This document shows positions 2,092 to 39,216 of a stretch of 47,222 nt of DNA, in pieces; the first letter of the stretch is position 1, and every line of letters starts with the position of its first letter. Where the stretch lies: positions 1 through 47,222 of IMG/VR virus record IMGVR_UViG_3300025141_000173; one strand, given 5' to 3'. The DNA comes from a virus. The position numbers were made by a program, and so were the translations under genes. Under the pieces are notes generated by a model. That model was given only the letters and a program-made list of their open reading frames with translations, had not been told where the DNA came from and made no database searches.

Positions 2092-3663
2092 TTACTCCGT
2101 TTGGATGATCCCATAATTGGTGGTGATCAAAGTGCCGGCACAGCTAGCCGCGTTTTGCAGCGCCGTCCGAGTTACTTTAACGGGATCGATAATTCCACTT
2201 CTAAATAGATTAACTAGCTCTCCGGTTCTAAAATTCCAGCCATAATTTTCTTTAGATTCCAAAATTCTGTTAATAATTAGATCGGGAGATTCGTTGGCAT
2301 TCATGGCCATCTGCTTAAAGGGCTCATAACACGCCTCCTTGACCACTGTTGCGCCATAAGCCTGTTCTGGGCCCTCTGTAGTAATGCATATCTTCTGTGC
2401 GGCGCGCAATAAAGCAGTGCCGCCCCCACACACAACTCCCTCTTGCTGCGCCGATCTGACTGCTTCTAGGGCATCTTCGATTCGGTGCTTCTTCTCGGTC
2501 ATTTCAACCTCCGTAGCTCCTCCAACCTTGATAACAGCCACACCTGAAGAAAGACGGACAATTCGCTCTTGAATGCGAGTGCATTCATCTAGTGCTTCTG
2601 TGTCCTTGATCAACTGCTTCAATGCTTCAATCTTATTTTCGATTTCCTCATAATTGCTACTACCCCCTACGATGGTGGTGGCATACTTATTACTTTCTAC
2701 AAACTTGGCGGTGCCCAAATCGGACATCTTTATCTCAGGTAACTTCATACCGCTCTCTCTCGTCACAAAAGTGGCGCCCGTGGACAGCGCAGCATCATTA
2801 AGGATTGCGCGGCGCTCTTCACCGTACATCGGGGCCTTAATAGCTGCCACCTTGAGAGTGCCTCGCATAGCATTCATGATCATGGCAGCTAACGCTTGCC
2901 CCTCAATGTCTTCTGCTACAATTATCAACGGTCGACTTTCGCGAGCGACCAACTCTAAAACTGGCAGAATCTGTTCCACGTTAGAAATCTTGTGGTCGGT
3001 GATAAGGAATAGGGGCTCATCATAATACATCATTCCTCTTCTCTCATCAGTGATGAAGGCAGATGCACAAAAGCCAGAATCCATCTTAAAGCCCTCGGTT
3101 ATATCCAGAGATGTATCTAGTGACCGAGATTCTTCAATAGTAATTGACCCATCTTGACCCACCTTATCTACTGCTGTCGCAATTAATTTCCCTATAGCTG
3201 TATCGTTATTGGCAGAAATTGCAGCCACGTGCTCAATATCTGCGATACTGTTCACAGGCATCGCCATATCTTTAAGATTACCTACCACTTCCCTAACAGC
3301 CAAATCGATGCCACGTTGTAGCTCGATAGGAGAAACACCGGACGCGATAAATCGTTGGGATTCACGGAGGATAGCTCTTGCAAGAACTGTTGATGTCGTT
3401 GTTCCATCCCCTGCCTCGTTATTTGTTTCAATAGCCGCTTGGCGTAAGATTTGAGCGCCTGCATTTTCAAATGGATCCTCCAATGCTACAAAATATGCGA
3501 CAGTCACGCCATCCTTCGTAATGAATGGCTGTTTGTCTTTTTCCTTTAGCAGTACATTGCGGCCTTTCGGCCCAAGTGTAGACGCCACGTTGTCTGCCAG
3601 TACGTTGGCGCCCTTGATAATCTTCTGTTGTAGAGTTTGATTGTCATCATAGGCTCTGCTCAT
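2092..3663 (-). CDS. groEL: Phage GroEL-type chaperonin (Cpn60)
   Basis: The 523-residue product aligns end to end with group I chaperonins: ASTLGPKGRNVLL near residue 30, the ATPase segment AGDGTTTSTVLARAIL near 84-98, the apical region with LIIVAEDIEGQAL, and the GGATEVEM and EEGV-type VVCGGGTALL motifs late in the protein. It ends NYGIIQTE and lacks the usual flexible GGM tail. By family knowledge it forms a folding chamber, and in T4-like phages such systems fold the major capsid protein. The partner GroES-like gene is at 18343-18618. GAGGG precedes the ATG and a perfect consensus sigma70 promoter lies just upstream. Confidence 0.95.
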   Translation of the reverse strand: MSRAYDDNQTLQQKIIKGANVLADNVASTLGPKGRNVLLKEKDKQPFITKDGVTVAYFVALEDPFENAGAQILRQAAIETNNEAGDGTTTSTVLARAILRESQRFIASGVSPIELQRGIDLAVREVVGNLKDMAMPVNSIADIEHVAAISANNDTAIGKLIATAVDKVGQDGSITIEESRSLDTSLDITEGFKMDSGFCASAFITDERRGMMYYDEPLFLITDHKISNVEQILPVLELVARESRPLIIVAEDIEGQALAAMIMNAMRGTLKVAAIKAPMYGEERRAILNDAALSTGATFVTRESGMKLPEIKMSDLGTAKFVESNKYATTIVGGSSNYEEIENKIEALKQLIKDTEALDECTRIQERIVRLSSGVAVIKVGGATEVEMTEKKHRIEDALEAVRSAQQEGVVCGGGTALLRAAQKICITTEGPEQAYGATVVKEACYEPFKQMAMNANESPDLIINRILESKENYGWNFRTGELVNLFRSGIIDPVKVTRTALQNAASCAGTLITTNYGIIQTE

Positions 3664-11974: not shown

Positions 11975-14900
11975 TTATCCTAGTAGTCTGAATGTTTTTC
12001 CTACAGCGTAGGTGGAGAAGCCCCAGTTCTCGTCGTACTTTAACTTAGCCATGTAGGGGCGATTCAAGTGAATGCGATCCTTTTCGGGCTTAATACCCCA
12101 GCATCTGATCTTAGTTAGTTCGTTATTGGAGTCAATAACCTCAACAATCCAATAGTTCTTGCCATTCTTAGTCTTTCTTGGAATGATTTTACGAGGAATA
12201 AACCAGCATACGCATAGCTCGGGATCGAACTCAGAAATCGGCGGGATGAACTTCTCTTGAAGCCTTTGGACGGTTGCCGGCGGAATCACCAGATTGATCG
12301 GGAACACTCCTGTGAGTTCTGTCTTGAATTGGATAATCTCCGATTCGCTGAAATCTCCCTCTGGTCGATAAAGTTCCAAATTCTCAGAAAATCTCTTGGG
12401 ATTTTTTGGGCGATCTACGATACACGCAGACCAAAAGTGTTTTCTGCCAGTGAAGCGATCATCGATGATGTCATCCAGCGCGCCACCACGACACAGAGCA
12501 TCCAGAGACTTCTTGTTTAACTTAGAGTATGTGATACCCTCGTTGAACAATAGCTCTTCGGCGCTGTTGAGTGGACGGTTCGCAAGTATCTGATCGATTG
12601 CTGCCATACCCAGACCCTTGATAGAGGTGAGCGGCTGAATCATTGTCTTGCCGTCATCGCTAATCTCCCAGACTGTGCCTGATTTGTTAATGTGCAGGGG
12701 CGCGATCTTAAAGCCATACTTCTTGGCGATGTTAATTGCCTTCTCCTTTCTAGTCTCGGGCTCCTTGTCGAGAAACGCCGCCATCCACTCCGCAGGGTAG
12801 TAGTTCAACAACCACGCACATTGGAACGAGATGATGGAATAGCTAACCGCATGCGACTTGTTGAAGCCATAGCCCGAGAAGAACTCAAACTTGTCCCACA
12901 GGTCTTGTGCTTGGTCACGGGCTATACCCTTGTCAACACAGCCTGTAATGAACTTCTTGTGGAGCCTGCCTTTCACGCTGTTCTTTCCGGTTCCCTTCTT
13001 CGTCAAAACCTTGCGCAGCATATTACCTTCGTCAAGAGTTAGGCCACCGAGCTTATGACCCAGCAGTGCGATTTGCTCCTGAAAGATTAGGAAGCCAAAT
13101 GTCTCCTGTGTGATCTCACAGGCTTCGTCTGAGAGGTACGCGATCTGATGTGGGTGCTCCTTGGCTTCCACGTAGTCAGCGTCAACACCAGCCGACAGCG
13201 GACCAGGGCGGAAGATAGAAGTCACAGCAGACACATCAATGATGTTGCGGGGCTTGACCTTCGTGCAGAACCCTTGCGCTCCCTGCTCTGTGAACTGAAA
13301 GACTCCAGCCCACTTGCCCTTGTGAAAGATGTTCTCGTATACCTCTTGGTTATCCAAGTCAATCCTGTCAGGGTGGAGGTTCTCATCGTAGTACTCTCGC
13401 ACCTGTGCGAAGGTTGGGTTCTCAACGCCGTGATGTCGGCGCAGGATATGTTCGATGGCGCCTTCCATCATCTTTAACGTAGATAGGCCAAGCAAATCAA
13501 ACTTAATGAACCCCATTGGCTCAAGATGCCTGACGTTCTGGCCCTCTGCCCACGGAGCCTGACGCACACCACCGGAGTTAATCAGCGGCATACTCTGGTC
13601 TAGGTTCTCTGCGATGACCACGCCACCAGCGTGACGGGAACACGATCGCACCTGCCCCACAAGACCCTCAACGTGAGCCTTGACTGCGGGATACTTGTTC
13701 AGATATGCGCGCAGTGACGGCGAGAACTCCATTGTTTCTTCCCACGTGGGCGCATAGACGCCAGCCTTGATACCGTGCTTCTTCTTTGCCTCGGGTGTAG
13801 CCTCTCGGATCATCACAGATGTGACTGTGTTTGCCTCCGTAAATGGCACGTCATAGAACTTTGAGATGTCCTTGATGAGCGATCGCAGCTGGAGGGTGTT
13901 CCAGTTAGAGATTGGAGCAACGCAGTCGGCGCCCCACATCTCCACCAGCTTCTCCTTCAATGCCATACTATCAGATATATCATAGTCAATATCAGGATAG
14001 TCTGTGGCATCGGAGCGTAGGAACCGAGAGAACAGTAGGCCGTGCCTGATAGGATCAACCTGTGTGATGCCCAGGGCGTAAGCCACCAGCGAACCTGCGG
14101 CAGAACCACGACCGGGGCCGGCCAACATCATAGTGGTGGCAACGTCTGCGATAGACTTCATCGTCAAGAAATACTTGGAGAAGCCTCGGTCATCGATAAC
14201 ATCTAGCTCGTGCTTAAGTCTTTGAATATATTCTGGATTGCCTTGGAAGCCTCGGGCCTTCAATCCCTCAAGGGAATACTGTACTAGCGCCTGTGTCGCC
14301 GTGAAGCCGGCTGGCACCACGAAACTTGGCAAACGCACAGTGTTGTCAGGGAAGAACTTCTCAATGCGGTCAAACGCGATACGGTGCGACTCTTCGATGC
14401 TCTCTCGCACCAAGTCATCATCATACTCAAAGCCGCCTTCTGTCGCATACTTCTTATAGCTTGCCCACATCTCGTCGCCGTTCTTAGGATACAACTCGTA
14501 GCCCACTTCTTCAACGCCCGCGGGTAGTTCAGACTCCATGTAATCTGGCAGTCCTCCCTTGCCGAGCCAACCCAAGCGAGTATATAGTTCTCGATCTCGC
14601 CAAGCTTCCGGGTCAGGATAGTGACTATCGGCTGTGCTTAGAAGTTTAACGTCGTGCTTCTGTGCGGTCTGGATGATGTATTGGTTGAGCTTGTGCTGAT
14701 CCTCCACGTTGTTCCATTGGATCTCGGCATACCAGCGATCGCCAAAGATATCTACCATCTTCTCGGTTGTCTCGCTCATAGCGCTAAGGACAGCTTCATC
14801 GCCTTCATCGCGATGCTGCCAATAGTTCCCAGCGTAGACTCCTCCAAGACACGCAGACGCAGCGATGATGCCCTCATTGTACTTCTTTAGGAGCGCGTAA

Positions 14901-15403
14901 TCAATACGAGGATACCTGTAAAAGTTTTCTGGTTGGTAAGACTCGGACACCAATTTGAAGAGATTGTTGAGCCCTGTCTGGTTCTGTGCCAGGAGGACGA
15001 GATGGTGGCGCCGGCGCAGGATATCCTGTGTCTTCTTGCTGCTGGCCGCATCTTCAACGGTAGCACCTGATTGATCGGTCTTCTTGATTGATCGTGCTCG
15101 CTTCTTGTCTTCCATTGCTGTCTCGTATTCCTCTCGCCACTCTTCAATAGACGGGATGAAATACGCCTCACACCCATAAATGGGCTTGAAGTCTTTGCCT
15201 TCCTCATGCATCTTTTTGGCGTGCAGAACCTGATACGCTAACCCATTCATGTTTCCATGATCGGTGAGCGCCAAAGCCTCTCCTCCGTTGTTGTAACAAA
15301 AGTCCATATGCGCCTGGGGATACCCCAGCGCATCAAAAATAGAACCAGCAACACTATGTGCATGCAGTCCTACAAACTTAATCTTGGATGTTTTCCGATT
15401 CAT
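11975..15403 (-). CDS. dnaE: DNA polymerase III alpha-type replicase (family C)
   Basis: The 1142-residue protein is a nearly full-length bacterial-type DnaE. The PHP domain starts at residue 14 (HAHS, TDHGNM). AGPGRGSAAGSLVAY precedes the catalytic PDIDYD (D471, D473, D475), and the third catalytic Asp is in IKFDLLGL (about D636). GVFQFTEQGA, FRPGPLS and FLIFQEQIALL follow, with an OB-like C-terminal domain. No epsilon-like exonuclease is seen. GGGAGG precedes the ATG. The coding sequence looks clearly GC-richer than the flanking genes, a hint of separate ancestry. The window also has a family-A polymerase, so the division of labour is open. Confidence 0.95.
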   Translation of the reverse strand: MNRKTSKIKFVGLHAHSVAGSIFDALGYPQAHMDFCYNNGGEALALTDHGNMNGLAYQVLHAKKMHEEGKDFKPIYGCEAYFIPSIEEWREEYETAMEDKKRARSIKKTDQSGATVEDAASSKKTQDILRRRHHLVLLAQNQTGLNNLFKLVSESYQPENFYRYPRIDYALLKKYNEGIIAASACLGGVYAGNYWQHRDEGDEAVLSAMSETTEKMVDIFGDRWYAEIQWNNVEDQHKLNQYIIQTAQKHDVKLLSTADSHYPDPEAWRDRELYTRLGWLGKGGLPDYMESELPAGVEEVGYELYPKNGDEMWASYKKYATEGGFEYDDDLVRESIEESHRIAFDRIEKFFPDNTVRLPSFVVPAGFTATQALVQYSLEGLKARGFQGNPEYIQRLKHELDVIDDRGFSKYFLTMKSIADVATTMMLAGPGRGSAAGSLVAYALGITQVDPIRHGLLFSRFLRSDATDYPDIDYDISDSMALKEKLVEMWGADCVAPISNWNTLQLRSLIKDISKFYDVPFTEANTVTSVMIREATPEAKKKHGIKAGVYAPTWEETMEFSPSLRAYLNKYPAVKAHVEGLVGQVRSCSRHAGGVVIAENLDQSMPLINSGGVRQAPWAEGQNVRHLEPMGFIKFDLLGLSTLKMMEGAIEHILRRHHGVENPTFAQVREYYDENLHPDRIDLDNQEVYENIFHKGKWAGVFQFTEQGAQGFCTKVKPRNIIDVSAVTSIFRPGPLSAGVDADYVEAKEHPHQIAYLSDEACEITQETFGFLIFQEQIALLGHKLGGLTLDEGNMLRKVLTKKGTGKNSVKGRLHKKFITGCVDKGIARDQAQDLWDKFEFFSGYGFNKSHAVSYSIISFQCAWLLNYYPAEWMAAFLDKEPETRKEKAINIAKKYGFKIAPLHINKSGTVWEISDDGKTMIQPLTSIKGLGMAAIDQILANRPLNSAEELLFNEGITYSKLNKKSLDALCRGGALDDIIDDRFTGRKHFWSACIVDRPKNPKRFSENLELYRPEGDFSESEIIQFKTELTGVFPINLVIPPATVQRLQEKFIPPISEFDPELCVCWFIPRKIIPRKTKNGKNYWIVEVIDSNNELTKIRCWGIKPEKDRIHLNRPYMAKLKYDENWGFSTYAVGKTFRLLG

Positions 15404-25841: not shown

Positions 25842-26677
25842 GAGTAATTTTGTATTGCGTTAGTGTGGGCAACGCAAAGCCCAAAGTCTTGTAATTCTGT
25901 TTCATAGATAGCATAAGAAATCCGCCGAAATGCATTGCGAGGTTTCCCCTTCAGCATATCAACTATCTTCTTGTGCAATCCTCCTTCTTGTTCTAGTTTG
26001 TCCCTATTGATACATAAATAATAACACACATCTCGACTCATGTCAAGCTGATATAGCCATTTTTCTTCCAGATTTTTGATATTTAAAAGACCGTAAGTTC
26101 GAATACGATTTATATCTAGCGGCTTTGATACCATTCCTATTTCTGGCTCAGCATGATTAAAATAGTTAATATAGTGAACTGTAGAGAATATAGATTCATT
26201 AATCTTGTCGTAATACGTTTTAATGGGGATATCTCCGATGGTCTTTTCGATCATGACGTTCGACAGAGGAGTGAACGAAGCGAGAAGGCCAGATCTTGCA
26301 TACTCCTGCAAAATACTAAATATTGCCTTATCTAATAATTTAGGAACTCCCGTCATCAATTCGGCATCTGGCTGTACATAAAATACATCGATCTTTTTAT
26401 CTCTTATCTGTTGCAGGATCCCCAGTGTATAATTAGAACTATAAGAAGAGCCTACCACAAACACCTGTACGCGTTCATCAATGTTGGCGAAAAACTTGTC
26501 TAGCTTGGGGATATTTTCTTCATATTGTTCTGGCGATGGAAATGACTTCAGCTTAAAGCGGTACTTCGATCGCCGTTCGACACCATCATTCATGAGGTAT
26601 ACATTGTAATTTTTCGTAGTGTTGAACTTTTCTGCTATTTTGGAAGCCGCGCTTCCTATTCCGATTATCGAAATCAC
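25838..26677 (-). CDS. Very divergent tubulin/FtsZ-like protein
   Basis: The order of elements in this 279-residue protein follows FtsZ: ISIIGIGSAASKI (T1 position, residues 3-14), NVYLMNDGV (where FtsZ has NTD, 25-33), VFVVGSSYSSN (76-82, where the GGGTGTG loop lies), a helix, then VFYVQPDAELMTG (98-110) and LLASFTPLSN (131-140, where FtsZ has 'vIPN'). Next come a long helix and LDINRIRTYG (187-196), at the T7 loop. The glycine-rich signature is lost, so ordinary GTP binding is doubtful. No database comparison was possible. It is coupled to the polymerase upstream by ATGA and lies before ssb, so a link to replication organisation is possible. Confidence 0.6.
   Translation of the reverse strand: MISIIGIGSAASKIAEKFNTTKNYNVYLMNDGVERRSKYRFKLKSFPSPEQYEENIPKLDKFFANIDERVQVFVVGSSYSSNYTLGILQQIRDKKIDVFYVQPDAELMTGVPKLLDKAIFSILQEYARSGLLASFTPLSNVMIEKTIGDIPIKTYYDKINESIFSTVHYINYFNHAEPEIGMVSKPLDINRIRTYGLLNIKNLEEKWLYQLDMSRDVCYYLCINRDKLEQEGGLHKKIVDMLKGKPRNAFRRISYAIYETELQDFGLCVAHTNAIQNYS
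26018..26046 (-). promoter_or_regulatory. Possible intragenic sigma70 promoter upstream of SSB
   Basis: TTGACA, 17 bases, TATTAT on the minus strand, within the 3' part of the tubulin-like gene and about 260 bases before the SSB start. Confidence 0.45.
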
Positions 26678-27849
26678 AGCTTTACCTCGTTCAGATTATA
26701 ATAATCTTTTCCTGCACGTAAATTCGCCATATAGCCATCTTCAAAAATATCTCGAATACCCATTACCAGATCTCGGTCCTCGTCAGAATAATCAATTACG
26801 ATCTCATCGTGAACAATATGTGAAATAAATGATTTTTTGCCTTCCAACATTTTGTCAATTATTACTGCCTTTTCAAGCACCCGATCAGCTGTGGTGCTCT
26901 GGATCAAATAGTTCAGCGCCTTTCTCTGCTCCACTTTGATTTGGCGACCATATGGGGTATGAATATATCCATCTTTATAATACTTGTCAAGCACTTTTTC
27001 GCGGTCATAATATTCTGAATCAATGTCCTTCGATTCAGGATTATAAAGCCATGCAAAGAAATACAGCTTCGCCTCTTCGCGAGTCATTTCCATATCTTTA
27101 ATAATATTCTGCACATTCCATTCGTGTATGTCGTACTCGGGCTGTTGCTGGCCACATAAACTAAGAAGCGTTCGAATTTCTGCTCCGTTATAATCAAAAC
27201 TCATCATCAGATCATTGTGGGGTTTAATTATACGACGAAGTTCTTTCTGCAAGTTTAAGATCGGAAAGGAGCCGGGGTGCGTCGAAAGTCTCCCCGTTAC
27301 AGTGCCGAACATGTTATAATCAATGCGCCTAAAGTTCTTCATCAATTCCTGAATCTTTTGGCGATTCATTGACGAGTAAAATAATTGCTTGCAGTCCTCG
27401 CTGTTAAGGTTCAAGCGCTGATATCTGATCTTGTGCAGAAGCTTATAAACCGAGTCTAAATGATCATAGTTTTCGGGCTTGTCGTATGTCTCGAATACGT
27501 GCTCAGTAATTCTGTTCTTAAGTTCGCAAAATCGCACAAGAAAATCATGAGGAATCAAGTCAAACACGCAGTGATCGGCCATATTAACCTTGGCGATCTT
27601 AAAGGATTTAAGATATGCCTTCATCTTTCTTTGAGTTGCTTGCAGCTCGTTACACAGGTCTTCGGGACAGCAGTCTGTAATATTTCGGCCGCCGGTTCGG
27701 AGCCATGCATATTCTACGGAGGGATCGGTGATGGAGCCACTATATCTCCATGTCTTAGTCAAGTCAGAGGGAAAATTATCAAAATATAATTTACCATTTT
27801 GATAAACACCAATACACTCTTTCTTATCGTCTATAGCCTGAAAAAACAT
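26674..27849 (-). CDS. Short family-A DNA polymerase
   Basis: The 391-residue protein has a complete family-A catalytic core: TVTGRLS (183-189), motif A SFDYNGAEIR (D219, E224, R226), motif B with R257, K261, F265 and Y269 in the spacing of E. coli R754, K758, F762 and Y766, then QRKALNYLIQSTTAD, and motif C IVHDEIV (H347, D348, E349). The Gly after the motif B tyrosine is Asn. The N-terminal 150 residues show no 3'-5' exonuclease motifs. Most family-A polymerases exceed 550 residues. With DnaE also present, it may do repair or primer replacement, together with the separate 5' exonuclease. Confidence 0.9.
   Translation of the reverse strand: MFFQAIDDKKECIGVYQNGKLYFDNFPSDLTKTWRYSGSITDPSVEYAWLRTGGRNITDCCPEDLCNELQATQRKMKAYLKSFKIAKVNMADHCVFDLIPHDFLVRFCELKNRITEHVFETYDKPENYDHLDSVYKLLHKIRYQRLNLNSEDCKQLFYSSMNRQKIQELMKNFRRIDYNMFGTVTGRLSTHPGSFPILNLQKELRRIIKPHNDLMMSFDYNGAEIRTLLSLCGQQQPEYDIHEWNVQNIIKDMEMTREEAKLYFFAWLYNPESKDIDSEYYDREKVLDKYYKDGYIHTPYGRQIKVEQRKALNYLIQSTTADRVLEKAVIIDKMLEGKKSFISHIVHDEIVIDYSDEDRDLVMGIRDIFEDGYMANLRAGKDYYNLNEVKL
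26962..26990 (-). promoter_or_regulatory. Possible intragenic sigma70 promoter upstream of the tubulin-like gene
   Basis: TTGACA, 17 bases, TATATT on the minus strand, inside the polymerase gene about 285 bases before the tubulin-like start. Confidence 0.4.
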
Positions 27850-38120: not shown

Positions 38121-38351
38121 TTAGTTACCCATTAAATCGGGGGGAATACGAGGCTGGTTATGCGGTGTTAAAGTTTGAGATTTAGAGCGCCCACTCGACG
38201 CGCCTTCAGCTGCTTCTTGTTCCATCTTGAGTTGTTCAGCGAGCCTTTTCGTGAACCAGTTTCGAAGTCCAACGGGCAAATTGTAAGCCTCAGAGAACGA
38301 CCAGCCACCAGAGTATTTCAAATAAAAGAACTGCTCATAGATGTTCTGCAT
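38121..38351 (-). CDS. Tail-assembly chaperone second ORF, probably expressed by frameshift
   Basis: This frame encodes YEQFFYLKYSGGWSFSEAYNLP followed by a Gln/Lys/Ser-rich tail. It has an ATG at 38349-38351 but no Shine-Dalgarno before it. The same frame is open back through a seven-T tract at 38370-38376 inside the preceding gene. A -2 (or +1) shift there would fuse it to the gp26-like protein, as in the G/GT pairs that precede tape measure genes. It may therefore exist mainly as a fusion tail. The 76-residue stand-alone form is the alternative. Confidence 0.8.
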   Translation of the reverse strand: MQNIYEQFFYLKYSGGWSFSEAYNLPVGLRNWFTKRLAEQLKMEQEAAEGASSGRSKSQTLTPHNQPRIPPDLMGN

Positions 38352-38355
38352 ATAA

Positions 38356-39216
38356 TCATCGGTCAGGCCAAAAAAAGTCCGCAGTCAGCGGTACCTCCAT
38401 TTCCTGCTCATGGGGACAATTCTCGCACTCAAAATATTGACTAAGATCGACATTAGGAGCAGCCAATTTATAGGCCGCCCTTAGATGTCGAGAATCCATG
38501 GAAGGAAGATTGTCAACACAATATTGAATTGCTTCAGGGCTGTCATATTCGTTGACTGCCACAATAAGATTTTTAAGCTGGCGTGTGATAAGGTTGTCTG
38601 ACTTGTTCTTTTTTCGTTGCTTTTCGGAGAGATCTAGCATGTTTTTCTCTTCCAGACCCGTCAGCAATCTAAATTTTACATTTAGGCCTGTCTTGGGTAA
38701 AGAGGTCGTAAAAGTACCATCTTCGTGATTCACAATCTCTAATTCGTGGATATTCTCTCCATGATATACCCGTGTATCATTCAGATCAAAGGAGAACTGC
38801 TGTTTTACGCTGCATGCGGGACACGTTATCTGCGTTTCATAATCATTGCCATATCCCGAGACACGGGCTGCGATCAATATCGCGTTTCTATCTCCGATCA
38901 GCATATTTTGGGGATTAATTCGCTTATTTCGAATAAGGCTCTCCAGCACTCGATCAAGCGCAATGCCCTTTTTGAGGAGCGCACGTGAAGTAAGAATATC
39001 TTCCTCTTTTGCTGTCATTTGCTTAATTTCTATGGCCTCTTGACCATAAAGGGGATGATTTTCAGGATAAAACACCCCTCTAGAGGGAAGCTCTACGAAC
39101 TCCGTAGGAACAACAAATGAGAAACCTTCATTTTCTAGCAGTTCTTGGGGGGGCGCCGCACTGGATTCGGGCTTAGGGGGCGCCATGCCTCCAAGACGAT
39201 TTTTGTTTCTTGACAA
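38356..39216 (-). CDS. gp26-like baseplate/tail-assembly chaperone protein
   Basis: The 286-residue protein matches the T4 gp26 type family: LPSRGVFYPENHPL, EIKQMTAKEEDILTSRALLKKG, ML.GDRNAILIAARVSGYG, and two zinc knuckles CPAC (near 145) and CENC (near 269). It ends EVPLTADFFWPDR. The FFW codons contain the seven-T tract that may serve as a slippery site into the 76-residue frame. The start is TTG, preceded by GAGGTG. By position, just before the tape measure, it is the G-type tail assembly chaperone. Confidence 0.85.
   Translation of the reverse strand: MSRNKNRLGGMAPPKPESSAAPPQELLENEGFSFVVPTEFVELPSRGVFYPENHPLYGQEAIEIKQMTAKEEDILTSRALLKKGIALDRVLESLIRNKRINPQNMLIGDRNAILIAARVSGYGNDYETQITCPACSVKQQFSFDLNDTRVYHGENIHELEIVNHEDGTFTTSLPKTGLNVKFRLLTGLEEKNMLDLSEKQRKKNKSDNLITRQLKNLIVAVNEYDSPEAIQYCVDNLPSMDSRHLRAAYKLAAPNVDLSQYFECENCPHEQEMEVPLTADFFWPDR
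38370..38376 (-). other. Candidate programmed frameshift site (T7 tract)
   Basis: On the coding strand the zero frame reads GAC TTT TTT TGG and stops 12 bases later. A slip of -2 (or +1) enters an open frame GGC CTG ACC GAT GAT TAT ATG, continuing into the 76-residue ORF without a stop. The tract allows tRNA-Phe to re-pair fully. Confidence 0.65.

Follow-up and report, generated by a model that had tools for sequence, protein, structure and literature searches.

A conserved candidate +1 frameshift site with an upstream hairpin in gp26-type tail-chaperone genes of uncultured phages

We propose that gene A and ORF B, two overlapping reading frames in the tail region of an uncultured marine phage, constitute one gene whose two products arise through a +1 ribosomal slip stimulated by a hairpin upstream of the slip site. 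Comparison with relatives makes this the most probable reading, although a good measure of doubt attaches to it. The more general claim that a programmed frameshift fuses two tail-chaperone ORFs of the T4 gp26-type family, which was the core of an earlier sequence-only reading of this DNA, is strongly supported by the comparative evidence, and gene A and the A-B fusion are almost certainly both made from the one gene. The sequence analysed, here called the window, is an IMG/VR virus record taken over its whole length of 47,222 bases; no DNA-level match to it was found among the phage records searched.

The whole tail cluster at this locus lies on the minus strand, a point that the sequence-only reading left unstated. 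Along that strand a tail sheath gene (42915-39901; phrog_23, E 1.9e-63) is followed by a tail tube gene (39840-39247; phrog_4542, E 2.4e-25) directly 5′ of gene A (39216-38356), then by ORF B (to 38121) and a putative tape measure gene (38050-35432). Gene A would encode the short form (286 aa) of a gp26-type tail assembly chaperone, as indicated by its matches to PF12322 (T4_baseplate, the gp26/gp51 family; E 3.6e-19, 69.8 bits against a curated cut-off of 24.5) and to phrog_150 (E 6.6e-20), and its TTG start is preceded by gaggtg (gcgaggtgtata). The putative tape measure protein has no family match of its own in Pfam or PHROGs, and is assigned by its size and by its position directly 3′ of the A/B pair, where the sequence-only reading had also placed it; in Immutovirus, SP-15 and LIS04 the corresponding slot carries a tape measure annotation. 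With the tape measure so assigned by position, two overlapping ORFs lie between the tube and tape measure genes, as in systems of the G/GT kind. Elsewhere in the window, and judged by eye, long minus-strand ORFs resemble a GroEL-type chaperonin (2092-3663), a bacterial DnaE-type polymerase (11975-15403) and, as a second polymerase in the same phage, one of the PolA type (26674-27849).

The minus-strand sequence of gene A closes with GCG GAC TTT TTT TGG CCT GAC CGA TGA, in agreement, from GAC onwards, with the terminal codons that had been read earlier. The T7 run (38376-38370) contains the candidate P-site codon TTT (38373-38371) and the first base of the A-site codon TGG (38370-38368). The frame-0 stop TGA (38358-38356) that ends the short form lies four codons past the P-site codon, and such a stop soon after the slip site is also present in the relatives examined. 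Because the +1 frame is open only after a TGA at 38387-38385, which forms the 5′ limit for a shift, any shift must fall within the 29 nt over which frame 0 and the +1 frame overlap, and the T7 run lies inside this stretch. The +1 frame is open across the junction into ORF B, as the sequence-only reading had it, and this ORF comprises 76 aa from an ATG at 38351 to its end at 38121. The predicted +1 extension B (GLTDDYMQNIYEQFF...) would run from 38369 through the stop codon at 38121, an extent that draws on third-position variability, a chain of hhalign comparisons and an AlphaFold2 model.

A first scan yielded 80 relatives, about 57-63% identical, each with the T7 run and with B in +1 wherever the contig extends far enough; a second extended to relatives of about 42% identity. 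The core set comprises 122 non-redundant junction loci with a YTT-TGG anchor. Five distant loci without YTT-TGG (L082, L086, L088, L089, L097) were set aside and three that are truncated or use another frame (L085, L098, L099) were left out. Relatives were sampled by best matches, and all counts describe relatives of the queries and not phages overall. In the core set YTT-TGG is kept and B lies in +1 at 122/122 loci, with the second frame open across the site, which takes the form TTT TTT TGG, and thus T7, in 112, TTC TTT TGG in five and TTT CTT TGG in five. Such constancy argues that the junction is not due to chance. An alignment of related junctions had been suggested in the sequence-only reading, which named stops between the frames and a ribosome-binding site for B as evidence that would tell against its proposal; the slip site and open second frame are conserved, and relatives have neither. 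Codon variability falls on phase 2 before the site (mean major-base frequency 0.54, versus 0.78 and 0.81 at the other positions) and on phase 0 after it (0.56 versus 0.84 and 0.90), the change that is expected if B is read in the +1 frame.

A hairpin, CCGC-UGACU-GCGG (38391-38379, minus strand), ends 2 nt before the T run in the window and about 1-4 nt before it across relatives. When the minimum free energy of positions -24 to -3 (about 21 nt before the T run) was compared with that of synonymous-codon shuffles, the mean z over the 122 loci was -3.58 and 82% of loci reached p of 0.05 or less, whereas three control windows in the same test gave z of -0.29 to -0.06. The common stem is CCGC/GCGG, and divergent loci carry others, for example GUUCC/GGAAC and GCCG/CGGC; a C-G to U-A exchange at pair -15/-9 is seen in ten sequences, which possibly do not represent independent events. 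Downstream of the site there is no signal of a stimulatory structure at +6 to +66 (mean z -0.07). The first Phe codon of the site is TTT in 117 of the 122 loci (p 1.8e-9, a value that treats related sequences as independent).

The comparisons establish a conserved site with its hairpin, B as coding sequence in +1 and the homology of B; from them we infer a ribosomal slip of limited efficiency. The majority of ribosomes would end at the TGA and yield the short chaperone A, in the role of gp26 or lambda gpG. A minority would slip by +1 at UUU-UGG: the tRNA in the P site, for Phe (or Leu), would re-pair from YUU to UUU, GGC would become the next codon, and these ribosomes would produce the long chaperone A-B, in the role of gp51 or lambda gpGT, with the predicted junction peptide ...TADFFGLTDDYMQ.... 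By analogy with lambda, A may coat the tape measure protein, with the B domain recruiting tube subunits. The likely stimulator is the small hairpin, re-forming behind the ribosome beside the E site, in combination with the weak UUU codon in that site. The layout of the site matches an in vitro result with bacterial ribosomes (70S extract), in which a hairpin upstream and beside the E site raises +1 slippage on CUUUGA, though only when RF2 is left out; weak E-site pairing also favours +1 (PMC6321510), which could explain why TTT rather than TTC precedes the slip codon. The A-site codon of the present site, by contrast, is the sense codon UGG, and this counts against our explanation. So do the fall of the hairpin signal to z -0.9 to -1.2 in the Mel-JY01 group, the lack of an apparent signal in RM378 by the synonymous-shuffle test, and the fact that a hairpin beside U7 also suits transcriptional slippage. 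Nor does our explanation assign a role to a strongly conserved GGAGG at -25 to -21, 20 nt before the P-site codon (about 38398-38394 in the window, minus strand), which is too distant for a classical stimulatory Shine-Dalgarno sequence.

Transcriptional slippage is the main rival, and a serious one that the sequence-only reading did not consider, although we judge it considerably less probable than a ribosomal slip. In this process the hairpin would form as RNA polymerase crosses T7, the hybrid would realign, and some mRNAs would emerge one U short, with A and B joined in one frame. The GC hairpin 2 nt before U7 resembles an intrinsic terminator, and the juxtaposition of a strong hairpin signal with a slippery run directly after it, seven Ts long in most loci, is what stem-loop-mediated slippage would call for. 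The excess of TTT as first Phe codon, far above the prediction from usage, also fits. There is precedent in an IS element, for which stem-loop-mediated slippage giving transcripts that lack one base was reportedly described by Penno et al. 2015. What speaks against transcriptional slippage is that T runs do not exceed four bases at 10 of the 122 loci (TTTCTTTGG, TTCTTTTGG), where B is still in +1, and that the +1 relation is kept over only three Ts in GXN1 (TTC TTT CGT) and LR756508 (TTT CTA).

If ribosomes do slip here, the direction favoured by the site variants is +1 and not -2. The sequence-only reading had offered "-2 (or +1)" together with a parallel to phage Mu, in which case the product would contain one extra Phe, and the T7 run permits a -2 slip in most loci. 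However, re-pairing of the P-site tRNA from YUU to UUU is possible in 122/122 loci, whereas a -2 slip at TTC TTT TGG would place the Phe tRNA on UCU with a mismatch in the middle position, and B is still in +1 at those loci; the TTT CTT TGG of Immutovirus likewise suits +1 better. The frameshift and its +1 option therefore stand, the -2 option and the likeness to Mu fall away, and we consider a -2 shift highly improbable. B is also in +1 in the distant phages Mel-JY01 and RM378 (both TTT TTT TGG), Immutovirus, SP-15 (TTT TTT CAC), LIS04 and GXN1, and in 65/67 relatives of Mel-JY01; the candidate slip codon is less clear in LR756508 and LIS04. CTT-T is a prfB-type slip, and the slip region of Streptococcus phage GXN1 (L088), TTC TTT CGT C, resembles the influenza PA-X +1 motif.

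We give equally little credence to the idea that B forms a gene by itself, with its own ATG as the start. An ATG does occur at +22 in the window and in 72 other loci, but a Shine-Dalgarno core precedes 0/73 of these; its absence in the window (tttggcctgaccgatgattat) had been noted in the sequence-only reading and extends to the relatives. Moreover, at 41 of 120 loci the +1 frame has no ATG, GTG or TTG on the way from the slip site to the conserved domain, and 15 of these 41 have none anywhere in the open +1 stretch. The conservation of GLT-x-(D/E)-Y starts at the slip site, ahead of the ATG. ORF B is thus without an initiation signal of its own, as is the second ORF in systems of the G/GT kind, although actinobacterial DUF6760 genes beside a gp26-like gene, and B in Cygsa01, appear to use their own starts. 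An assembly error can be dismissed almost entirely, since a true T6 would indeed yield a single fused open frame, but in IMG/VR at least 120 stretches contain the exact 21-base T7 string and 0 its T6 equivalent (counts that rule out sequencing error as the source of the frame break), relatives examined have a frame-0 stop soon after the site, and relatives that lack a long T run keep the same frame relation.

Searched directly, window B has no significant match in Pfam or PHROGs, and its 13.4 bits against DUF6760 (PF20546) fall below the curated cut-off of 27. Links emerge from single pairwise hhalign comparisons. The B profile aligns with the planctomycete partners (E 2.7e-11), and these align with actinobacterial DUF6760 (E 6e-18), so that B is connected with DUF6760 only through planctomycete intermediates. 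The shifted-frame B of cyanophages aligns both with window B (E 1.2e-10) and with the C-terminus of T4 gp51 (E 1.7e-13), and a direct hhalign comparison of T4 gp51 with window B is not significant (E 0.085). Judged by these profile comparisons, B is homologous to the gp51 C-terminus through the cyanophage relatives. This link rests on hhalign by way of cyanophages because the match of the fused A-B protein to phrog_150 did not extend into the gp51 C-terminal part (it ends at 239 of 282). When the fusion was modelled with AlphaFold2 (P0002, alignment A2), the helices of B were predicted with confidence (pLDDT about 83-93 over the main helices), as was the N-terminal part of A, with the rest of A weak. 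A fold search with this model found no PDB match at E 0.001; its viral matches, for the most part baseplate-hub proteins, accord with the family, the model as a whole being moderate (pLDDT 70).

Across the sequences compared, the A-B pair appears in five ARRANGEMENTS: a +1 shift, a -1 shift, separate genes arising by duplication, an in-frame fusion, and a separate start. The -1 form is found on the canonical U_UUU_UUN in cyanophage relatives (motif in 77/77, frame open in 76/77), and the -1 heptamer is also present in Aeromonas 65.2, SRB7757, five planctomycete loci and LR756511. T4 has gp26 and gp51 as separate genes, both of PF12322, and no +1 ORF lies 3′ of gene 26. Two planctomycete genomes (L177, L178) carry A and B as a single in-frame fused gene, and B apparently starts separately in actinobacterial loci and Cygsa01. 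The strongest indirect indication that A-B is the functional product here is that the same fusion recurs through such different arrangements. Among the cyanophages (L211-L290, L202), the gp26-like genes have NNT TTT TTC NNN and then a stop at their ends, B lies in -1, and about 9 nt before the heptamer stands a conserved GAG/GAA-GG that resembles a stimulatory Shine-Dalgarno sequence. In the actinobacterial loci (L184-L201) a short gp26-like gene is followed by DUF6760, and their junction often carries GGGGGAATCGTGAC, in what we suspect is a contractile-injection-system context.

A wider proposal, for and against which we find the evidence about evenly balanced, is that a conserved hairpin beside the E site drives +1 slippage at the sense codon UUU-UGG throughout a widespread lineage of uncultured marine contractile-tailed phages, and that the direction of slippage has switched between +1 and -1 within one chaperone family while the fusion product was kept. 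If true, this would be a natural instance of an upstream-hairpin effect that has so far been shown with reporter constructs. One protein pair has been kept through +1 and -1 shifts, duplication, fusion and separate start, and well over a hundred natural variants are available for the study of how slippage direction is set.

Frameshifted G/GT chaperones occur across long-tailed phages, with T4 long held to be the exception and HSTV-2 likely using +1 (PMC5009743). According to later papers that cite the work (PMC10885494, PMC12846349), T4-type tail chaperones were identified by Vladimirov, Gautam and Davidson 2022; PRFect (PMC10885494) draws from it that a short gene accompanies a fused long gene in some T4-like phages, and in PMC12846349 it is the reference given for -1 signals of the poly-T kind in T4-like phages. 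As relayed there, the T4 relation is prior art and the -1 sites probably are too. The connection that the sequence-only reading drew between the gp26-type family and frameshifted chaperones is thus upheld but, going by those accounts, is not new, and we make no claim of novelty for T4 gp26 and gp51 as short and long forms. A +1 site or its hairpin in PF12322 chaperones was not found in the literature searched, which excluded most subscription journals, and the +1 site with its 5′ hairpin, as found in this uncultured lineage, seems to be new. The phage tail-chaperone shifts known so far are mostly -1, and the present +1 site, strongly conserved and preceded by a hairpin, adds to them. Our comparison also offers an explanation for the truncated cyanophage gp51, reported by Sullivan et al. 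2010 to lack about the first 200 residues (PMC3037559): a -1 shift from the gp26-like gene would account for the missing part. In annotation, where a B ORF is listed as hypothetical or as short gp51, its fusion to the upstream gene deserves consideration.

Among known systems, prfB (RF2) CUU-UGA is alike in that a P-site YUU slips onto UUU, as would be possible with the YUU-U of all 122 loci and most closely with their CUU-UGG variants. It differs in having a stop in the A site, where the present site has the sense codon UGG, and a Shine-Dalgarno sequence 3 nt upstream, where the hairpin occupies the near position here and GGAGG is further away. We know of no 5′ hairpin reported for HSTV-2 or Listeria phage PSA. 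They are tailed phages for whose structural genes +1 frameshifting is reported (PMC5009743; likely in HSTV-2), a likeness of kind. The cyanophages share the A-B architecture, their short gp51 being the shifted-frame B, but use the canonical U_UUU_UUC with B in -1, and no 5′ hairpin signal was found in these relatives. In T4, A has homologues in gp26 and in the N-terminal part of gp51, and B is linked to the gp51 C-terminus via the cyanophages, but the short and long forms are two genes. In common with the locus studied here, lambda G/GT has one gene with two products, placed between the tube and tape measure genes, and a frameshift close to where the first ORF ends joins the two; the lambda shift is -1 (PMC5009743), whereas the shift proposed here is +1, in PF12322 proteins and with a hairpin upstream.
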